Shown: positions 18,095 through 36,020 of the stretch, piece by piece | Layout of the letters: each line of letters begins with the position of its first letter | How positions within the stretch are numbered: position 1 is the first letter of the stretch | Source: Myxococcales bacterium | Lineage (GTDB): Bacteria > Myxococcota_A > UBA9160 > UBA4427 | Reading direction: 5' to 3' | DNA length: 41,487 bases | Assembly: GCA_012959665.1 (NCBI GenBank) | Contig: DUCT01000032.1 | Coordinates: 1 to 41,487 of the forward strand | Program-made: the position numbers and the translations under genes | The notes under the pieces: generated by a model | The model's database searches: none | Told to the model about the DNA's origin: nothing | What the model saw: only the letters and a program-made list of their open reading frames with translations

Positions 18095-18370
18095 ATGAAC
18101 GAAGCTTCGCGCATTCAGGGATGGACAATCTGCGGCGCCGCAGGCGGGTTGGCCCTGCTCTTCGTCCTCGGCCTCCTCAACCACAGCTATTGGGCGATCG
18201 CCCTACCCGTGGCCGTTCTGACTCTCTTCGTGCTCGGCTTGGCGGGCTGGGTCGGCTACACGATCGCCACTATCCAGGTCGAAGCCGACCCGGTACCCGA
18301 GGTCCTTGTCTCCGAAGCCGACACCCGGGAGGCAGCCCCAGAAGCCTCCAGCCCACGCGAATCGACCTGA
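18095..18370 (+). CDS. Small uncharacterised two-TM protein
   Basis: 'GLALLFVLGLLNHSYWAIALPVAVLTLFVLGLAGWVGYTIATIQ' hydrophobic segments; immediately upstream of the glycosyltransferase. Confidence 0.55.
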   Translation: MNEASRIQGWTICGAAGGLALLFVLGLLNHSYWAIALPVAVLTLFVLGLAGWVGYTIATIQVEADPVPEVLVSEADTREAAPEASSPREST

Positions 18371-18380
18371 GTTCCCGAGT

Positions 18381-19640
18381 ATGCGAATCGCACTGCTGAC
18401 CTATCGAGGAAACATGTTCTGTGGCGGACAGGGCATCTACGCCGCCTATCTCGCCCGGGAGTGGCAGAAGGCCGGGCACGATGTTCACGTCTTCGCCGGA
18501 CCTCCGCTTCCGGAGTTGGCCTCGGGCATTCCCCTGCATGAAATTCCCAACGACAACGTCTTCGCCGGCGAGATGCAGAATTTCTTCAACCCGGCCCAAC
18601 CCCTCTCCCTACTCAAACCCCTAAGCCTCTGGGAACTGGGTGTCTCGCGATTCGGCATCTTTCCTGAGATGCAGACATTCGGCTTCCGCCTGATGCGTCG
18701 CTGGCCGACGCTCCAGGAGCGGCACAAGTTCGACATCGTCTTTGACAACCAATCCCTGTCCTGGGGTCTGCTCGGCATTCGCGCCATGGGGACACCCGTC
18801 GTATCGGTGATCCATCACCCCCTTCACATTGACCGCGAGGCCGACTACTCCATCGATCCCCGGCTGATCAAGAAGATCAAACGAACCCTCTACTTTCCGC
18901 TCTTCATGCAGCAGCAAGTCGCGCCGCGACTCGATCGCATCGTGACAGTGAGCCAGGCATCGGCCCACGAAATCGAGCGCTACTTCGGCATCCCGAGCAA
19001 GAACGTCCCCGTCATCTACAACGGCACAGATACGGAACTCTTCCGACCCATCGAAAGCGTCGAGAAGGAAACCGACATGCTTTTCGTCGGCCGCACCGAA
19101 GACCGCAAAAAGGGAATCGGCACGATGCTTGAAGCCCTCTCGCTGCTGCCCAAAGAAGTCACCCTCAAAATCGTGGATGGCCGCATACCGGAAAATGGCC
19201 TCGTCCCCCGCCTGATCCAGAAATACGGGTTGGGCGACCGGGTCAAGGTCGTCGATCGGATGCTCAGTGTGGAGGAACTCGTCGAGCAGTACTCCAGCGC
19301 GCGGGTCGCCATCGTGCCCTCTTTCTTCGAGGGGTTCGGGTTTCCCGCCAGCGAGGCCATGGCATGCGGGCTCGCGGTGATCGCCAATGCCGCCGGCGCC
19401 CTACCCGAGGTCGTGGGCACGGATGGACACGCGGGACGCCTGGTCCCCATGCGAGACTCCCGGGCCATGGCCGACGCCATGGCGGACGTCCTTTCGAATC
19501 CGGAGAAAACCGCCCGAATCGGTCGCGCCGCGCGCAAGCGGATCGAGCGAGTATTCCAATGGAGCGACGCTGCCGCTGGCCTCGTCGACGTATTCGAGGA
19601 AACCCTGCGTGCTTCTCACCGTCGATCTCGAGCGGCTTGA
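18381..19640 (+). CDS. Glycosyltransferase family 4
   Basis: 'MRIALLTYRGNMFCGGQGIYAAYLAREWQKAGHDVHVFAGPPLP' and 'VAIVPSFFEGFGFPASEAMACGLAVIANAAGALPEVVG' (GT-B, GT4). ATG at 18381. Confidence 0.92.
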   Translation: MRIALLTYRGNMFCGGQGIYAAYLAREWQKAGHDVHVFAGPPLPELASGIPLHEIPNDNVFAGEMQNFFNPAQPLSLLKPLSLWELGVSRFGIFPEMQTFGFRLMRRWPTLQERHKFDIVFDNQSLSWGLLGIRAMGTPVVSVIHHPLHIDREADYSIDPRLIKKIKRTLYFPLFMQQQVAPRLDRIVTVSQASAHEIERYFGIPSKNVPVIYNGTDTELFRPIESVEKETDMLFVGRTEDRKKGIGTMLEALSLLPKEVTLKIVDGRIPENGLVPRLIQKYGLGDRVKVVDRMLSVEELVEQYSSARVAIVPSFFEGFGFPASEAMACGLAVIANAAGALPEVVGTDGHAGRLVPMRDSRAMADAMADVLSNPEKTARIGRAARKRIERVFQWSDAAAGLVDVFEETLRASHRRSRAA

Positions 19641-20319
19641 CGTCCGAGCCGGCGACCTCGTCTTGGACGCGGGTTGCGGCGAGGGTCGTCATTGCTTCGG
19701 CTGCCTCGAACGCGGGGCACGCGTTGTCGGACTCGATCTCGACTTCGACTCCCTAAGGCTCGCCGCCCGGCGGCTGCGGGGCCGGGCCGAGGAGCTCAAA
19801 TCCGTCGGGGAGATGAACCAAGGAAACGCTTTCGCCCTCCCCTACGCGAACAACACCTTTGACCGCATCATCTGCTCCGAGGTCATGGAACACGTCCACG
19901 ACTACGTGGGCGCGGTGCGCGAACTCGCCCGGGTCACACGGCCGGGGGGCAGGCTCGCCATTACGATCCCGACGGCAACCAGCGAGCACCTGTATCTGCG
20001 CCTGGGGGATGACTACTTCGAGAGCCCGGGTGGTCATATCCGAATCTTTAAGCCAAGGAGGCTTGCCGAAGGCCTAGCCAAGGTCGGTCTCAGTACAGTC
20101 GGCGTCGGCTTTGCCCACGGTTTTCACACGCCGTACTGGGTGCTTCGTTCCATCATGAACCTGCCCTCGGCGGATGACAGCGCCCTCGTGCGGATCTACC
20201 GAAAATTCCTGATCCAGATCACGGGTTCCCCCGTCATGGATCGCATCGAGAAAAAAGTCCTGAATCGGATCTGTCCCAAGAGCTTGATCCTGTACGCCGA
20301 GAAGTCGTCCATTGCCTGA
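19609..20319 (+). CDS. Class I SAM-dependent methyltransferase (Methyltransf_11 type)
   Basis: 'DLVLDAGCGEGRHCFGCLERGARVVGLDLD', 'FDRIICSEVMEHVHDYVGAVRELARVTRPGGRLAITIP'. GTG start at 19609 overlapping the GT4 end. Confidence 0.9.
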   Translation: MLLTVDLERLDVRAGDLVLDAGCGEGRHCFGCLERGARVVGLDLDFDSLRLAARRLRGRAEELKSVGEMNQGNAFALPYANNTFDRIICSEVMEHVHDYVGAVRELARVTRPGGRLAITIPTATSEHLYLRLGDDYFESPGGHIRIFKPRRLAEGLAKVGLSTVGVGFAHGFHTPYWVLRSIMNLPSADDSALVRIYRKFLIQITGSPVMDRIEKKVLNRICPKSLILYAEKSSIA

Positions 20320-21628
20320 CCTCCAGCGGCCCCAACGGGTCTGTTTTATTGCCTATCGGGGCAGCATGACATGCGGGGGCCAGGGCATCTACCTCTACTT
20401 CCTGGCCCGGGAACTGGCACGCCTCGGAATCGAGGTCGACGTCGTGGTGGGCCCGCCCTACCCGGACCCCATGGACTTTGCCCGGAGTGTCCAGAAACTC
20501 CCCAATCGAGAACACTGGGCTCGGTGGTTTACCGGCGACTACCCGGGGATGCTCCCGGAGGGAGGAGCGATGGCGGCGCTCAACCCCCTCAACCTCTACG
20601 AGCTTGGGGCCAGTCGCCTGGGCTTCCTCCCCGAACCCATGGCGTTCAGCTTGCGCGCACTCCGCGCCCTGGCCCAACGCCTCCGCACCGGCGAACGGTG
20701 GGATCTGATCCACGATGTCCAGTGCCTCGGCTACGGGGTCCTTGGCCTCAAGGCCCTGGGGCTCCCGGTCGTCACCACCATCCACCACCCTCTGTCGGTG
20801 GACCGCCGAGCGTCCCTGATCCGAGACCAGACCCTTCGCGACCGAATCGGCTCCATGGCCTTCTACCCCGTGGACATGCAGGCCTTCGTGGCCCGGCGCG
20901 TCGACCGAGTCTTCACCTCCTCCGAAGAGAGCGCACGGGCGATCGCCACGGACTTTCGGGTCAATCCGAATCGCATCCGCAATGTCCTCAATGGCCTGGA
21001 TACCGATTTCTTTTGTCCCGACCAAGCCGTGGAGCGAAGCGAAACCGAACTGCTCTGCGTGGGACGCGCCAGTGACCCCAACAAGGGCGTCCGCAGCCTG
21101 ATCCGGGCACTGGCTCACCTGCCCGAGGCCATCACCCTCACCTTGGTGGACAACAACCACCCGGACAGCGAGGTTTTCAAGTGGGCGCGCGAGGTCGGGG
21201 TGGGCCACCGACTGAATGTCACAGGCCGGGTCGAGGCCGACGCCTTGGTGAACCTGTACCGAAGAGCCGCCGTCACCGTGGTTCCGTCGCGCTACGAGGG
21301 GTTCGGATTGCCTGCCGTGGAATCCATGGCCTGCGGCACGCCGGTGGTGGCCTGCCGTGTGGGCGCCCTTCCCGAAGTCATGGCGCTATGCGAGGGGGGA
21401 CTTCTGGTCGAAAAAGATTCATCCCCGGCCCTCGCCCAAGGAATCAAAACCCTCATGCGCTCATCCGATCAACGCCGGGAACTTGCCGAGCGTGGGCGTG
21501 GGCGTGTGGAAGCACATTTGTCCTGGCGGAGAGTCGCCAGCGCCACAGCCGACGGTTACGCCGAGTTACTGGCCGAACGGCGCGGTCGCCCCACCAGCAC
21601 GATCACGTCGGATAGACCCGGCCAATGA
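20312..21628 (+). CDS. Glycosyltransferase family 4, paralogous to 18381-19640 (TTG start)
   Basis: 'IAYRGSMTCGGQGIYLYFLARELARLGIEVDVVVGPPYP' and 'VVPSRYEGFGLPAVESMACGTPVVACRVGALPEV'. TTG at 20312 overlaps the methyltransferase stop. Confidence 0.92.
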   Translation: MPDLQRPQRVCFIAYRGSMTCGGQGIYLYFLARELARLGIEVDVVVGPPYPDPMDFARSVQKLPNREHWARWFTGDYPGMLPEGGAMAALNPLNLYELGASRLGFLPEPMAFSLRALRALAQRLRTGERWDLIHDVQCLGYGVLGLKALGLPVVTTIHHPLSVDRRASLIRDQTLRDRIGSMAFYPVDMQAFVARRVDRVFTSSEESARAIATDFRVNPNRIRNVLNGLDTDFFCPDQAVERSETELLCVGRASDPNKGVRSLIRALAHLPEAITLTLVDNNHPDSEVFKWAREVGVGHRLNVTGRVEADALVNLYRRAAVTVVPSRYEGFGLPAVESMACGTPVVACRVGALPEVMALCEGGLLVEKDSSPALAQGIKTLMRSSDQRRELAERGRGRVEAHLSWRRVASATADGYAELLAERRGRPTSTITSDRPGQ

Positions 21629-30009: not shown

Positions 30010-31014
30010 ATGACCCAAACACTCTTACTTGCCGACGACAGCCACGTAATCCACGGGCTGATCGAACGGGGTCTGGCCGAGCTCAAAATCGAACTGATCG
30101 CTTCCAGCAATGGAGACGAAGCAATCGAGATGGCTCGTTCTCTTCGTCCCGACATCGTCCTCGCGGACATTTGTCTACCGGGGCAGAACGGATACCAACT
30201 CTGCCGAGCCATCAAAGAAAGCCCCGAACTCGGCCACATCCCGGTCGTTCTCCTGGCCGGCGCGTTCGAGCCATTCGACCCGGAAGAGGTCCAAGCCTCA
30301 GGCGCCGACGATATCATCACGAAGCCCTTCGAATCCGCAACACTGGTCGAACGAGTGAAAGTCCTGCTGGCACCAAGCGGCCCTCTGCCCTTGCTGGACC
30401 CCTTACTCGACTCTCCCCTGGAAACCTCCGGTGAAGCTCTCCAGGCAGCCGACACTCCCGAAAAGTCTCCCAAACCTGCCCCCTTGCCGGATGACTTCAT
30501 CGTGGCGGACGAAGTCGAGTGCCTGGGCGAAAGCGAACCCCTTGACGCGGCCCCCCTGCTTTTAGAAGAACTCATCGATGCAGAACCCCTGAGCGGGCAT
30601 CCAGACAGCGATCCATTCGCCGATGAGAACTTCGATTTTGGTGCGCCGGTGCGCCCCAATACCCCTCTGGCCCCCGATTCGCTCAGTCAAGCTCCGGATC
30701 TCCTGATACCCGACCCGCACCCGTCCGACCCAATCGCGACGAAGCCGAGCGAGCCCGAGCCCCCCGAACTGGATCTCTTGGAGACTTTTCCCATCGGCGA
30801 CGAAGAAAAGCGCCCCGGTCACCCAACCAACGTTCAGCCAGCCGTCCGAGACGCCCTGGGGCAAATTGCCGGAGAAGCCTTTTCTGAACTCCCCGAGACG
30901 GTGACGAAAGCCCTGATCGAGCGAATCGAGGCCATCGCCTGGGAGGTCATCCCCCAGATGACCGAAGTCCTGATCCGGGAAGAAATTCGGCGCATGAAGG
31001 AAGGCCAGGAATAG
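30010..31014 (+). CDS. Receiver-domain protein with acidic/proline-rich linker and conserved C-terminal helix
   Basis: 'TLLLADDSHVIHGLIERGL...DIVLADICLPGQNGYQL...DIITKPFES' REC; long D/E/P-rich linker; C-terminus 'ALIERIEAIAWEVIPQMTEVLIREEIRRMKEGQ'. Confidence 0.87.
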   Translation: MTQTLLLADDSHVIHGLIERGLAELKIELIASSNGDEAIEMARSLRPDIVLADICLPGQNGYQLCRAIKESPELGHIPVVLLAGAFEPFDPEEVQASGADDIITKPFESATLVERVKVLLAPSGPLPLLDPLLDSPLETSGEALQAADTPEKSPKPAPLPDDFIVADEVECLGESEPLDAAPLLLEELIDAEPLSGHPDSDPFADENFDFGAPVRPNTPLAPDSLSQAPDLLIPDPHPSDPIATKPSEPEPPELDLLETFPIGDEEKRPGHPTNVQPAVRDALGQIAGEAFSELPETVTKALIERIEAIAWEVIPQMTEVLIREEIRRMKEGQE

Positions 31015-31132: not shown

Positions 31133-32011
31133 GTGCCTCTGCCTCTCACCCCGCCGCCCCTCGCGGCCTACCAAGACCTGATCGATCTTGCCCTGGCCGA
31201 GGATGTCGGCCCGGGGGATATTACATCGGATCTCGTGATTCCTGCCGCCTCCGAGGGTTCGGCGCGAATCGAAGCGCGATCCGACCTCACGGTCTCGGGC
31301 CTCTACGTCGCCGCTGACGTGATTCGCGCGGTCAACCCGGAAATCAGGCTGACCCCGGAAGCGCACGAGAGCGAGACCGTCCAGGCCGGGCGGATTCTCA
31401 TGCGGCTGAATGGGTCGATGCGAGGAATCCTCGCTGCCGAGCGAACGGCGCTGAATTTCCTGGGACGCCTGTGCGGGGTGGCCACCCTGACCCGACGCTA
31501 CGTCCAGGCCGTGGCCCATACTCGGTGCCAGATCGTGGATACCCGAAAAACACTCCCGGGCTGGCGAGCGCTGGACAAGTTTGCGGTGGCCAGTGGCGGG
31601 GGCACCAACCATCGGTTCGCCCTCTACGATGGCATCCTTCTCAAGGACAATCACGTGGCCTCCGCTGGGGGCGTCGAAGCTGCCGTGACAGCCGCGCTTC
31701 GGGGAGCCCCGTCCGGCATGCGAGTTCAGGTCGAAGTCGAATCCCTTGAAGATGCCGAGAAAGCCTGCCAGGCGGGCGCTGATTTTCTCCTGCTGGACAA
31801 CCAGACACCCGACCAAGTCAGGCGCATCACCGAGCATTTGGGTGACCGGGCGACCCTGGAAGCTTCCGGCGGAATCACCCTGGCGAATCTCAAGGAATAC
31901 GCGGAGACAGGCGTGCACCGCATCTCCCTCGGCGCTCTAACGCACTCGGCACCCGCCGCCGATGTCGCCCTTGAAATCGAGGCTTCCAACACCGAGCCCG
32001 GGACACGATGA
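31133..32011 (+). CDS. nadC: Nicotinate-nucleotide pyrophosphorylase (carboxylating), GTG start
   Basis: 'ALAEDVGPGDITSDLVIP', 'ERTALNFLGRLCGVATLTRRYV', 'DTRKTLPGWRALDKFAVASGGGTNHRFALYDGILLKDNH', 'LEASGGITLANLKEYAETGVHRISLGALTHS'. Confidence 0.97.
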   Translation: MPLPLTPPPLAAYQDLIDLALAEDVGPGDITSDLVIPAASEGSARIEARSDLTVSGLYVAADVIRAVNPEIRLTPEAHESETVQAGRILMRLNGSMRGILAAERTALNFLGRLCGVATLTRRYVQAVAHTRCQIVDTRKTLPGWRALDKFAVASGGGTNHRFALYDGILLKDNHVASAGGVEAAVTAALRGAPSGMRVQVEVESLEDAEKACQAGADFLLLDNQTPDQVRRITEHLGDRATLEASGGITLANLKEYAETGVHRISLGALTHSAPAADVALEIEASNTEPGTR

Positions 32012-33015
32012 TTGAGGGCGCCCGCAGAGTTCTGGAATCGCTCCAGACTGCTGGCCACGCCCCCCGCTCGGGGGAAGATCTCTCCTCACAACTCGGAGTC
32101 TCCAGAGCCCAGATCTGGAAGCATGTCAGCGCGCTTCGCAAACGCGGCTACTCCATCGATGGTGCGCCGGGTGATGGCTACCGACTGGTCTCCAGTCCCG
32201 ACCGCCTCTACCCCGAAGAAATTTCCCGAGGGCTGGCCACACGATGGCTGGGCCGCTCCATCGAGCATTTCGATGAAACCGATTCAACCAATCGCGTCGC
32301 CGCGGATCTCGCCCGAGCCGGCGCCCCCCATGGCACTGCGGTCATTGCCGAGGCCCAAACTGCGGGCCGAGGCCGACTTGGGCGCGGCTTCTTCTCTCCC
32401 GCCTTCTCCAATCTCTACACCTCCATCATCCTGCGCCCAGATCTCGACACGGCCTCGGCTCCCACTCTTCTTCTGGCGGCCGGAGCCGCCGTGGCGGAAA
32501 CCGTCATCGGTCTACTGGGCGAAACCACCGAGTTGGAAATCAAGTGGCCCAACGATGTGCTTCTCGCAGGACTGAAAACCTCTGGGATTCTGATGGAACT
32601 CGGCGCCGAAGAAAATCGCGTCAGCTACGCCATTCTGGGAATTGGCGTCAATCTCAACGTCGACCGCAATGAGTTTCCCGACGAATTCCGTGAGCGCGCC
32701 ACAAGCCTCAGTTCCCATTCGGGCCAACCGATCGATCGAGCCGACTTTACCCGTCGGCTCTTCGGAACCCTTGAAAACGTTCTGGACGAACACGCCCAAG
32801 GAGGTCTCCCGAAAATCTGGCCCCGCTTCGAGCAGCATTTCCACATGGCTGGACGGACCATCACCGTCGATCAAGTCAATGGTGACCCAATCGAAGGTAT
32901 CGCCGCGGGAATCGCAGCGAACGGTGCTCTGCAGATCGACTTGCCCTCCGGAGAGCGAATCGAAGTACTGGCCGGAGATGTCACGATCTGCAAGGATGAT
33001 CCAGTCAAGGAGTAA
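32008..33015 (+). CDS. birA: Biotin-[acetyl-CoA-carboxylase] ligase with N-terminal HTH (BirA)
   Basis: N-terminal wHTH 'QLGVSRAQIWKHVSALRKRGYSIDGAPGDGYRL'; 'AEAQTAGRGRLGRGFFSP', 'IKWPNDVLLAGLKTSGILMEL', 'GIGVNLN'. Confidence 0.95.
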   Translation: MIEGARRVLESLQTAGHAPRSGEDLSSQLGVSRAQIWKHVSALRKRGYSIDGAPGDGYRLVSSPDRLYPEEISRGLATRWLGRSIEHFDETDSTNRVAADLARAGAPHGTAVIAEAQTAGRGRLGRGFFSPAFSNLYTSIILRPDLDTASAPTLLLAAGAAVAETVIGLLGETTELEIKWPNDVLLAGLKTSGILMELGAEENRVSYAILGIGVNLNVDRNEFPDEFRERATSLSSHSGQPIDRADFTRRLFGTLENVLDEHAQGGLPKIWPRFEQHFHMAGRTITVDQVNGDPIEGIAAGIAANGALQIDLPSGERIEVLAGDVTICKDDPVKE

Positions 33016-33022
33016 CATTATC

Positions 33023-33811
33023 GTGCCCCAAACATCCCTGCTCGTCGTCGACATTGGAAATACCAACGTATCGCTGGGCATATTCGACTATGCCGACGAC
33101 GAAGGAAAGCTGACGCACCACTGGCGACTCTCGACCCACCGGGAGCAGACTTCGGACGAACTCGGCATCGCCCTGCATTCGCTCTTCGATCACGACGAGC
33201 GACAAGTCAGCCAAATCAGTGATGTGATCCTCTCCAGCGTAGTGCCTCCCATGGTGCCGATCTGGGAGCGGGTCGCGTTCAAACTCTTCTCCCTGCCTCC
33301 CATGGTGGTGGGCCCCGGTATGCGAACTGGAATGCCCGTCCGCTACGAAAATCCTCACGAAGTAGGCGCAGATCGCATCGTTAACTCGGTGGCCGCGTAT
33401 GACATGTACGGCGGACCGATCATCGCGGTGGATTTCGGAACGGCGACCACCTTCGACTGCATCTCCCGTGAAGGCGAGTACATGGGTGGCGTCATCACTC
33501 CAGGCATTCACATTTCCATGGAGGCACTTTTTGAACGCACGTCGAAGCTCCACAGGGTCGAAATTGCGAAGCCCCGCAGCGTCATCGGAAAGACAACCAC
33601 AAGCGCTCTACAATCCGGGTTGCTGTTCGGGTACGCGGGGATGGTGGATGCCATGGTGGAGAAAATCCTGCCAGAGCTCGGGGCGGACGCCCGGACCATC
33701 GCGACCGGCGGCTTGGCCAGAAGGATTGCCGAGGAGAGCAAGGCGATAGAGGAGGTGGTTCCCTTTCTCACCCTGGAAGGCCTGCGAATCCTCTTTGAGA
33801 AAAATCGCTAG
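33023..33811 (+). CDS. coaX: Type III pantothenate kinase (GTG start)
   Basis: 'LLVVDIGNTNVSLGIFDY', 'VGADRIVNSVAAYDMYGGPIIAVDFGTATTFDCIS', 'GGVITPGIHISMEALFERTSKLHRVEI'. Confidence 0.95.
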   Translation: MPQTSLLVVDIGNTNVSLGIFDYADDEGKLTHHWRLSTHREQTSDELGIALHSLFDHDERQVSQISDVILSSVVPPMVPIWERVAFKLFSLPPMVVGPGMRTGMPVRYENPHEVGADRIVNSVAAYDMYGGPIIAVDFGTATTFDCISREGEYMGGVITPGIHISMEALFERTSKLHRVEIAKPRSVIGKTTTSALQSGLLFGYAGMVDAMVEKILPELGADARTIATGGLARRIAEESKAIEEVVPFLTLEGLRILFEKNR

Positions 33812-33960
33812 GTGTGGCTGAGTACTTAGTTTCAGCGCAGACCGTGTTTTACCCAACTCCCATTGAAGTCTCCCGCCCCCGCACTCGGTCACCCGGTCAA
33901 CTCCGGCTCAGCAGAACCCAAGCTTCGACCTCCCACTTTCCCAGCCCAGGAGAAGTTCGA

Positions 33961-35031
33961 TTGGAATCAACCGCCGCAAAGAGCAAAATCCGGCTGGTCC
34001 TCTCCCCTGCGGCCGAAAAGTACGCGCGCCGGGATGCTCCTTTGAAGGTGCGAAAGATGGCCGCCCGTGGTGCCCTGCCTCTGGACCCCCTCGACCTTGC
34101 CACTCTGCTCTTCGCCCTGTCCCATGATCCGGAAGCGGAAGTTCAGCAAATTGCACGAGAAAGTCTGGCAACCCTACCTTCGGCAATTCTCACCCCCGTC
34201 ATTACAGGCGCCGCCCATCCCGCCCTCCTGGCTCACCTTGCCCGGCTCCACCGCCGAGACGAAGCGACTTGCGAGGTCATTGCCTTGAACCCGGCCACTT
34301 CTGACCTCACGGTTGCCTTCCTCGCCTCCCTGCCCTTGCGAAGCATCGTGGACATCGTGAGCAATAATCAGGAAAGGCTCCGACGCGAGGACAAGATCCT
34401 GGAAGCCTTGGGGGAAAATCCGCTGACGGGCCGAGCCGTGATCGAACGGATACTGGACTTTCTCGGCATCGTGGCTCACTCCGACGATGACGACTCCGTG
34501 AAACGGGAACCCACGGAAGAAGAGGCCACCCGCGCGGTCTTGGCAGTACTCGGTGATCAGTCTCTGTCCACCGCGCGACTCCTGACCTCAGAGAAAAACA
34601 GCGAAGAGGAGACAACCAACGACAACGTTTTTTCTGCGATCCAGAAAATGAGCGTGATGCAGAAAATCAAGTTGGCCCGCCTAGGGGGCAAGGAAGCCCG
34701 CTCTTTCCTCATCAAGGACAGGAACAAAGTGGTCGCCATGTCGGCGTTACAGAGCCCTAAAATGACGGAGACCGAGATCACCAGCATCGCCCAGTCCCGG
34801 TCCATTTCCGACGAAATTTTGCGTATGATTTCCAACAACAAGGAGTGGACTCGGAACTATCCGATCAAACTCGCCCTGACAACGAATCCCAAGACTCCTC
34901 TCCCCCAAGCCGTCAAATTCTTGAACTACTTGCAGGATCGCGACCTGCGGGCTCTCATGAAGAGCCGGGATGTCTCCAGCGCCATCTCCAGCCATGCCCG
35001 GCGAATCCTCGACAAAAAAGGCCTGGTCTGA
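33961..35031 (+). CDS. Uncharacterised alpha-helical HEAT/DUF2336-like repeat protein (TTG start)
   Basis: Repeating helical units 'VIALNPATSDLTVAFLASLPLRSIVDIVSNNQERLRREDKILEALGENPLTGRAVIERILDFLGI'. TTG at 33961 with GGAG about 8 nt upstream. Confidence 0.7.
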   Translation: MESTAAKSKIRLVLSPAAEKYARRDAPLKVRKMAARGALPLDPLDLATLLFALSHDPEAEVQQIARESLATLPSAILTPVITGAAHPALLAHLARLHRRDEATCEVIALNPATSDLTVAFLASLPLRSIVDIVSNNQERLRREDKILEALGENPLTGRAVIERILDFLGIVAHSDDDDSVKREPTEEEATRAVLAVLGDQSLSTARLLTSEKNSEEETTNDNVFSAIQKMSVMQKIKLARLGGKEARSFLIKDRNKVVAMSALQSPKMTETEITSIAQSRSISDEILRMISNNKEWTRNYPIKLALTTNPKTPLPQAVKFLNYLQDRDLRALMKSRDVSSAISSHARRILDKKGLV

Positions 35032-36020
35032 TGTCATCTTTTCCCGCAACAGAGTCGCAAGAATTCAGGATCGTCTACTGGGGATCCGAGAGCGTCGGAT
35101 TGACCCAAAGCCTCGACGCTATCGTGGAAACCAGCAATCCCGATGAGTGCTGCAGTCGGACTCGGTTCCCCACCAGTCTCGACCCTGCATCCTGCTACGA
35201 AAAGCTCTCGTTGCAGTTTGGTTACCCCGCCCCCGGCCGGCCGGTATTCAACCTGATCGCGGCCCCCAGCGCCCCGGAACTTGCTCCGGTCCGCGTCCAA
35301 CTTCTCGATCGCGCCGATGCCATCGTGCTTCTCGTGGAAATAACCCAGGGCAGCCAGCAACACGACGCCATCCGCCTTGCTGAATTACGCTCGGCTCTGG
35401 CCGCTTATGGCCGCCTCCTCGACGATCTCCCTCTTGCAGTGCAGTACACCGGTCCCGATTGGGTGGAACCCACCGATGTGGAGCAGCTCCTTCGCGAATT
35501 CGAAATTGCCCCAGTGGCCGTTCACCAGGCGATCCACGACACGAAGACCTCATTCCGCGAGGTCCTTCAGGGCCTCGCGCGCGTGCTCCAAGCCCCCAAC
35601 ACAACCTCTTCCACCTTTCTGGCGGGCGAAAGCGCCACGATCCAGCTTGCCGAAGAGGACGACCCGTGGCTCACTCCGCCCGACACCCATCCTTCCGAGG
35701 ACGAATCCGCCATTTCCGCAATGCTGGAAGCGTCGATTCTCGAAGAGTCCGAGGGCGGCGATGCGTTACCCATCGGGGCGGTTGGCGCATTCTTTGAAGT
35801 CAACAGAACCGAAGCCGGCGACTCTCCCGAGGAATCAACCTTTAAGTCGATCCAGGCAAGCCCCTCCAGGGATTTCGAAATCGCATCGGTGGGTATCGCC
35901 GTCCGTACCGGCAGCCGGGGGATTCGCATCCCCCTGGCCCTATCCAGCCCAGAAGGGGAATCCGTTCCCCTGACCCTCCACATCGAAGTGGAGGCACCGT
36001 CAGGGGAACGGGAACCCTAA
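35031..36020 (+). CDS. MglA-like small-GTPase-fold protein with degenerate nucleotide-binding motifs, plus acidic C-terminal extension
   Basis: 'FRIVYWGSESVGLTQSLDAIV' in the P-loop position; 'DRADAIVLLVEITQGSQQHDAIRLAELRSALAAYGRLLDDLPLAVQYTGPDWVEPTDVEQLLREF' parallels the MglA C-terminal half. Start overlaps the upstream stop (TGATG). Confidence 0.7.
   Translation: MSSFPATESQEFRIVYWGSESVGLTQSLDAIVETSNPDECCSRTRFPTSLDPASCYEKLSLQFGYPAPGRPVFNLIAAPSAPELAPVRVQLLDRADAIVLLVEITQGSQQHDAIRLAELRSALAAYGRLLDDLPLAVQYTGPDWVEPTDVEQLLREFEIAPVAVHQAIHDTKTSFREVLQGLARVLQAPNTTSSTFLAGESATIQLAEEDDPWLTPPDTHPSEDESAISAMLEASILEESEGGDALPIGAVGAFFEVNRTEAGDSPEESTFKSIQASPSRDFEIASVGIAVRTGSRGIRIPLALSSPEGESVPLTLHIEVEAPSGEREP
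35961..36012. terminator. Large hairpin at the end of the MglA-like gene, between convergent genes; candidate bidirectional terminator
   Basis: Outer stem CCGTTCCCCTGAC/GTCAGGGGAACGG (12-13 bp) and inner stem CCTCCAC/GTGGAGG with loop ATCGAA and a 4-nt bulge. Confidence 0.6.

Follow-up and report, generated by a model that had tools for sequence, protein, structure and literature searches.

The window, i.e. the whole stretch of 41,487 nucleotides analysed here (contig DUCT01000032.1 of the Myxococcales bacterium assembly GCA_012959665.1), carries a gene for a HEAT/ARM-like helical repeat protein that is followed directly by the gene for a candidate pseudo-GTPase. We named the latter pMglA after MglA, the bacterial relative of the Ras switch protein, and its start codon overlaps the stop codon of the HEAT gene by 1 nt (TGATG). 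Upstream of the pair lie a gene for a RomR-like response regulator and three genes that we take to be nadC, birA and a coaX-type pantothenate kinase gene (Table 1); the name nadC also rests on the translation. Further upstream, two similar-looking glycosyltransferase-like ORFs (18306-19640 and 20312-21628) flank a methyltransferase-like ORF, as judged from their translations.

Table 1. Features of the RomR-like/HEAT/pMglA region, in positions of the window; residue numbers are those of pMglA.
Feature	Position	Strand	Basis or remark
RomR-like response regulator	30010..31014	+	receiver domain, Pro/acidic linker, RomR-C-type tail
Presumed nadC	31133..32011	+	conserved in cluster
Presumed birA	32008..33015	+	conserved in cluster
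Presumed coaX-type pantothenate kinase gene	32996 or 33023..33811	+
HEAT/ARM-like helical repeat protein, co-encoded with pMglA	33814..35031	+	true start probably TTG 33961
pMglA, MglA-derived pseudo-GTPase (candidate)	35031..36020	+	ORF, 329 aa; PDB matches; profile; fold; orthologs
Ras-like domain, residues 11-187	35061..35591	+	AlphaFold2 model, MglA alignment
Degraded G1/P-loop GSESVGLTQ, residues 18-26	35082..35108	+	alignment to MglA
Degraded G2 SLDPASC, residues 49-55	35175..35195	+	MglA Arg finger now Pro
Degraded G3 IAAPSAPE, residues 76-83	35256..35279	+	Gln82 absent
Alpha-3 and following turn, residues 108-128	35352..35414	+	best-retained element; proposed protein-binding face
Degraded G4 TGPD, residues 140-143	35448..35459	+	alignment to MglA
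Acidic, mostly disordered linker, residues 188-281	35592..35873	+	helix at 224-238
C-terminal beta mini-domain, residues 282-320	35874..35990	+	common to orthologs and L071-type MglA

A scan of pMglA against Pfam and NCBIfam returned no family, only sub-threshold noise (SIP, LemA). In a single-sequence phmmer search of the PDB, residues 9-186 matched the MglA proteins of T. thermophilus (E = 2.6e-5) and M. xanthus (E = 4.5e-5), with no other credible match, and a canonical-MglA profile built from 19 sequences scored 44.4 bits (E = 8.6e-11 at Z = 1e5), while none of 200 shuffled versions of pMglA was reported by the same profile. Together, these results indicate that the resemblance to MglA is not due to chance. 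The AlphaFold2 model of the Ras-like domain has pLDDT values mostly above 90 and its best 14 matches in a fold search of the PDB were all MglA, followed by Ras; the folding alignment included true MglAs, and the model supports the fold but is no independent proof of it. Thus, the MglA/Ras-like fold put forward in the original prediction is borne out by phmmer, profile, AlphaFold2 and PDB fold matches, and sequence and model together identify the domain as a descendant of MglA. The prediction of an acidic tail and a small beta-rich C-terminus was about right as well: the linker contains 20 D/E but only 3 K/R, and the residues beyond it form a confident three-stranded beta element in the AlphaFold2 model.

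Numbering motif positions after M. xanthus MglA, we found G1 changed from GPGLCGKTT to GSESVGLTQ (K25 to L, T26 retained), G2 from TDRT to LDPA (the Arg finger R53 to P, T54 to A), G3 from TVPGQ to AAPSA (Q82 to A) and G4 from NKRD to TGPD, with the Asp alone kept. T26 of the GKT core and the G4 Asp are the sole remnants at these sites, in agreement with the losses that had previously been read by eye as GLT, APSAPE and YTGPD.

Orthologs of pMglA, defined by a score far above that of the ordinary MglA of the same genome, were present in 55 of 61 related genomes, a set that reaches from members of the window's genus out to members of its order. The named relatives carrying them are metagenome-assembled genomes (MAGs), almost every one under a Myxococcota/Myxococcales or Delta-/Proteobacteria title; L032, the closest of them, is a ‘Myxococcales bacterium’ MAG. 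One relative with the same gene order, L038 (NZGT01000022.1), is titled ‘Spirochaeta sp.’; it seems identical to contig G016, from the window's family, so that this label is probably wrong. Among the 55 family members used for motif counts (the mis-framed row L036, which duplicates L015, was excluded here and from the tree), 38 keep the P-loop Lys and 44 keep NKxD, while the Arg finger is lost in all but one member and Gln82 is likewise kept in one. Orthologs from sister genera mostly retain GK[ST] and NKxD, but in the window's genus an intact ORF is combined with a broken nucleotide site in all five species sampled. Both G1 and G4 are gone in four of these, L005 and L006 having lost even the G1 glycines, and the fifth, L004, keeps G1 only (GTGKTT). 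The recurrence of the altered site in five species rules out a sequencing error or chimera as its source, and the extension of the loss through the genus rules out a local mutation. By the original prediction, orthologs with retained GKT and NKxD would have spoken for a local mutation, and here the answer is mixed: the sister genera mostly retain these motifs, so that full motif loss marks this genus and, outside it, a single unrelated lineage. In that lineage, the Myxococcota genome of L169, the HEAT-linked protein (also numbered L204) has lost both P-loop and G4 in an independent event, and its C-terminus is a similar stretch of beta type.

The family tree unites the five species of the genus in a single clade (100/99), set on a long branch inside the family, with L004 branching off first; some end branches are long and placements within the genus are therefore unsure. 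Parsimony on this tree requires six changes at K25, five at NKxD, one at R53 and two at Q82. Together with the spread of the motifs, these counts suggest that the hydrolysis residues were lost early, that the binding residues followed later and repeatedly, and that everything was lost in the window's branch. As far as can be read from the sequences, decay in the family is thus stepwise, hydrolysis residues first and then binding residues. A divergent member, L054 (JALSIO010000090.1), keeps the Arg-finger Arg (PGDRS) and GKT without Gln82, and is a possible intermediate, situated on a long branch.

The HEAT protein is predicted to be all-helical, and its fold matches generic ARM/HEAT repeats with low TM-scores. 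Within the order its orthologs share 51-79% identity with it, and it is better conserved than pMglA; its gene lies directly upstream of nearly every pMglA ortholog, mostly with an overlap of 1-4 nt. Of 189 genomes sampled from the phylum, 165 have the HEAT gene. Beyond the window's order, 50 of its loci were examined, and 44 of these have no neighbouring MglA-like domain; therefore, the HEAT protein does not depend on an adjacent MglA-like gene everywhere. Further pairs of HEAT and MglA-like genes occur in L150-L153, from another family of the same class, and in L155 and L169. In L154, of the same class, the HEAT gene is directly followed by a GAF-type gene, with the MglA-like gene missing between the two and probably lost.

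A distant lineage (L071 and L072, the relatives L212-L217, and also L220) carries the same HEAT gene followed by an MglA with an intact motif set, i.e. GK[T], [DE]RT, TVPGQ and NKxD. Most MglAs of this lineage have a C-terminal element that aligns to that of pMglA (L213 runs off its contig), and in a tree with the root placed on ordinary MglAs, L071 groups with the pMglA family, apart from the ordinary MglAs (94/89, not starred). The L071 genome encodes a second, ordinary MglA, and upstream of its HEAT gene are birA, coaX and an EF-G-like gene. A motif-intact, HEAT-linked MglA is therefore the likely ancestral state, as the gene context and the tree suggest. Shorter HEAT-like paralogs (L223-L229, frames of ~252 aa) were observed elsewhere in genomes of the L071 lineage. 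The original prediction included neither the HEAT partner nor the motif-intact pairs, nor the family-wide loss of Arg finger and Gln82 or the RomR-like gene. Our search of a literature collection with few subscription journals returned no MglA-family pseudoGTPase and no HEAT-MglA pair, and the HEAT-pMglA pair appears to be a previously undescribed one that spans the order and the class and recurs in a distant lineage. The conserved adjacency makes it quite probable that the HEAT protein is a stable partner of pMglA.

Relatives usually have the genes in the order sigma factor, RomR-like regulator, nadC, birA, coaX, EF-G-like gene, HEAT, pMglA and GAF-GGDEF, with the placement of coaX checked by an L071 CoaX query for part of the loci. 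Many relatives, which belong to two distant lineages and number many Myxococcota among them, have the EF-G-like gene between coaX and HEAT (L071:5130-7214, with PF00009 and EF-G domains; L041:6767-8752; L048:6796-8829). The window lacks it, as do L032, L037, L038, L040, L050 and L053. An association of this neighbour with an intact P-loop Lys seemed possible, but there are exceptions in both directions. A GAF-GAF-GGDEF gene follows pMglA in many relatives (L037:10936-13227, with PF01590 and PF00990; L053:11014-13293) and is absent from the window's cluster and from L032.

The RomR-like protein has an N-terminal receiver domain (PF00072, E=5.6e-20), and its tail was judged against published descriptions of RomR-C (PMC3441718, PMC12719032). 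Its C-terminal helix (IEAIAWEVIPQMTEVLIREE; IEAIAWEVIPQMTEVLIREEIRRMK) shows the arrangement of Trp, Pro and Glu known from the RomR-C helix, in which a Glu is conserved and a Trp and a Pro are invariant (PMC3441718). It also keeps the E390/W394/E402 spacing of the M. xanthus RomR helix that reportedly binds MglC (PMC12719032), with Ala at K391. A PDB sequence search with the tail gave no match; it is the only clear tail of this kind in the assembly, which is 80% complete. On these features we regard the gene as RomR-like.

The reading that we favour on balance is that pMglA is a nucleotide-independent, HEAT-bound adaptor that arose from a Group-1-type MglA paralog co-encoded with the HEAT gene. 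The ancestor would have been a GTP-dependent partner of the HEAT protein. Once the HEAT protein fixed the G domain in a single conformation, hydrolysis and, after it, the binding of nucleotide would no longer have been needed. What persisted would be the surface for interaction, made up of alpha-3, the end of alpha-2, the linker helix and the beta mini-domain. Judging from the order of the losses, the switch would have been locked before it was emptied, giving up hydrolysis first and binding only later. Today pMglA would serve as an adaptor that is constitutively on, perhaps within a RomR-MglA network of surface signalling or polarity. We propose such a role because the cluster carries a RomR-like gene; a function in polarity is possible though doubtful, and both the HEAT-pMglA partnership and the link to polarity are inferred from gene order and sequence. 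Whether the HEAT-MglA pair constitutes a two-protein module in which the GTPase was repeatedly and independently turned into a nucleotide-free structural subunit, with catalytic, binding-only and pseudo-GTPase stages all living, is in our judgement evenly balanced.

Selection in the genus bears directly on whether pMglA is instead decaying there, with its ORF kept open mainly through the overlap with the HEAT gene. Such decay would fit the long branches of the genus, the EF-G-like and GAF-GGDEF neighbours already lost in the window and the absence of the MglA-like gene beside HEAT in L154, and pMglA also evolves faster than HEAT: dN/dS is 0.25 for pMglA and 0.18 for HEAT in the close pair L005/L006, and 0.34-0.43 against 0.12-0.13 in two more distant pairs with large dS (0.43 against 0.12 in one of them), a difference that could reflect relaxed constraint. 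However, the ORFs are intact in five species, and even in the C-terminal region, where no overlap reaches, dN/dS stays far below 1, which shows pMglA in the genus to be under purifying selection. Furthermore, alpha-3 residues and the beta element are retained: the genus keeps 90% of the family-conserved residues in alpha-3 and 66% in alpha-2, compared with 30% in G1 and 13% in G4, counts that come from few, related sequences and are descriptive only. This pattern fits the loss of a pocket with a protein-binding face kept, and we consider decay unlikely.

We also find it quite unlikely that pMglA still binds nucleotide in an unorthodox way, with other residues standing in for G4 and the P-loop Lys, as happens in GTPases whose motifs deviate. 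T26 does persist, as does the Asp of G4, L004 of the same genus keeps its P-loop, and MglA groups 2 and 3 also deviate in G4, with a group 2 member still hydrolysing GTP (PMC4316618). In pMglA, however, G1, G3 and G4 are degraded together, and L005 and L006 are without even the G1 glycines; the motif losses argue that pMglA very probably does not bind GTP. That pMglA is a decoy or regulator titrating the true MglA by binding MglB, RomR or MglA partners is very unlikely: a canonical mglB-mglA pair does lie on another contig of the same genome (G000:C108), as the original prediction of a true MglA encoded elsewhere had it, and the cluster itself contains a RomR-like gene, but the gene paired with pMglA is HEAT and not mglB, canonical mglA adjoins the single roadblock (MglB) gene found in the 80%-complete assembly, and throughout the family the MglA residues of G3 and the switch have changed. 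Of the two roles originally suggested, a scaffold fits the evidence, while a regulator of a true MglA remains conjecture.

If the adaptor reading is true, the pMglA family would provide a step-by-step record of the conversion of a Ras-like switch into a scaffold, as one gene in one context displays all stages between a complete set of GTPase motifs and no motif at all, the P-loop having been lost repeatedly and the partner conserved. This makes it testable what allows a GTPase to lose its nucleotide and yet stay useful. It would also add two candidate parts, the HEAT protein and its MglA-like partner, near a RomR-like gene in Myxococcota.

Compared with MglA Group 1 of Myxococcus and Thermus, as defined by Wuichet and Sogaard-Andersen 2014 (PMC4316618), the pMglA domain is homologous, has the same predicted fold and finds its best PDB matches there by both sequence and structure. 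It lacks, however, the P-loop GxxxxGK[ST] (GSESVGLT in pMglA), the Arg finger beside the G2 Thr, TVPGQ with its Gln, and [NT]KxD, adds an acidic linker and a C-terminal beta element, and has HEAT rather than MglB as its partner. MglA groups 2-3 (conservon CvnD and relatives) share a deviating G4 with pMglA, but their remaining G motifs are in place, including GTPGQ, they have MglB as a partner, and GTP is hydrolysed by CvnD9; the sections considered of that survey sort MglAs by G motifs and describe variants of G4 but no loss of the whole set (PMC4316618). PseudoGTPases are known, and mostly recognised, in eukaryotes, where class (i) members such as p190RhoGAP pG1/pG2, CENP-M and fungal dynein LIC combine a Ras-like fold with degraded G motifs and, like pMglA, a proposed structural or adaptor role (PMC5593906). 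With its modelled Ras-like fold and a motif degradation shared by related species, pMglA would belong to class (i) as a bacterial case from the MglA family, and, unlike the eukaryotic members, it is MglA-descended and has living motif-intact orthologs in the same gene context. Indeed, the HEAT-linked MglAs of L071, L072 and their relatives share the upstream HEAT gene, the domain order and a similar C-terminal beta element with pMglA but, unlike it, keep all catalytic motifs.
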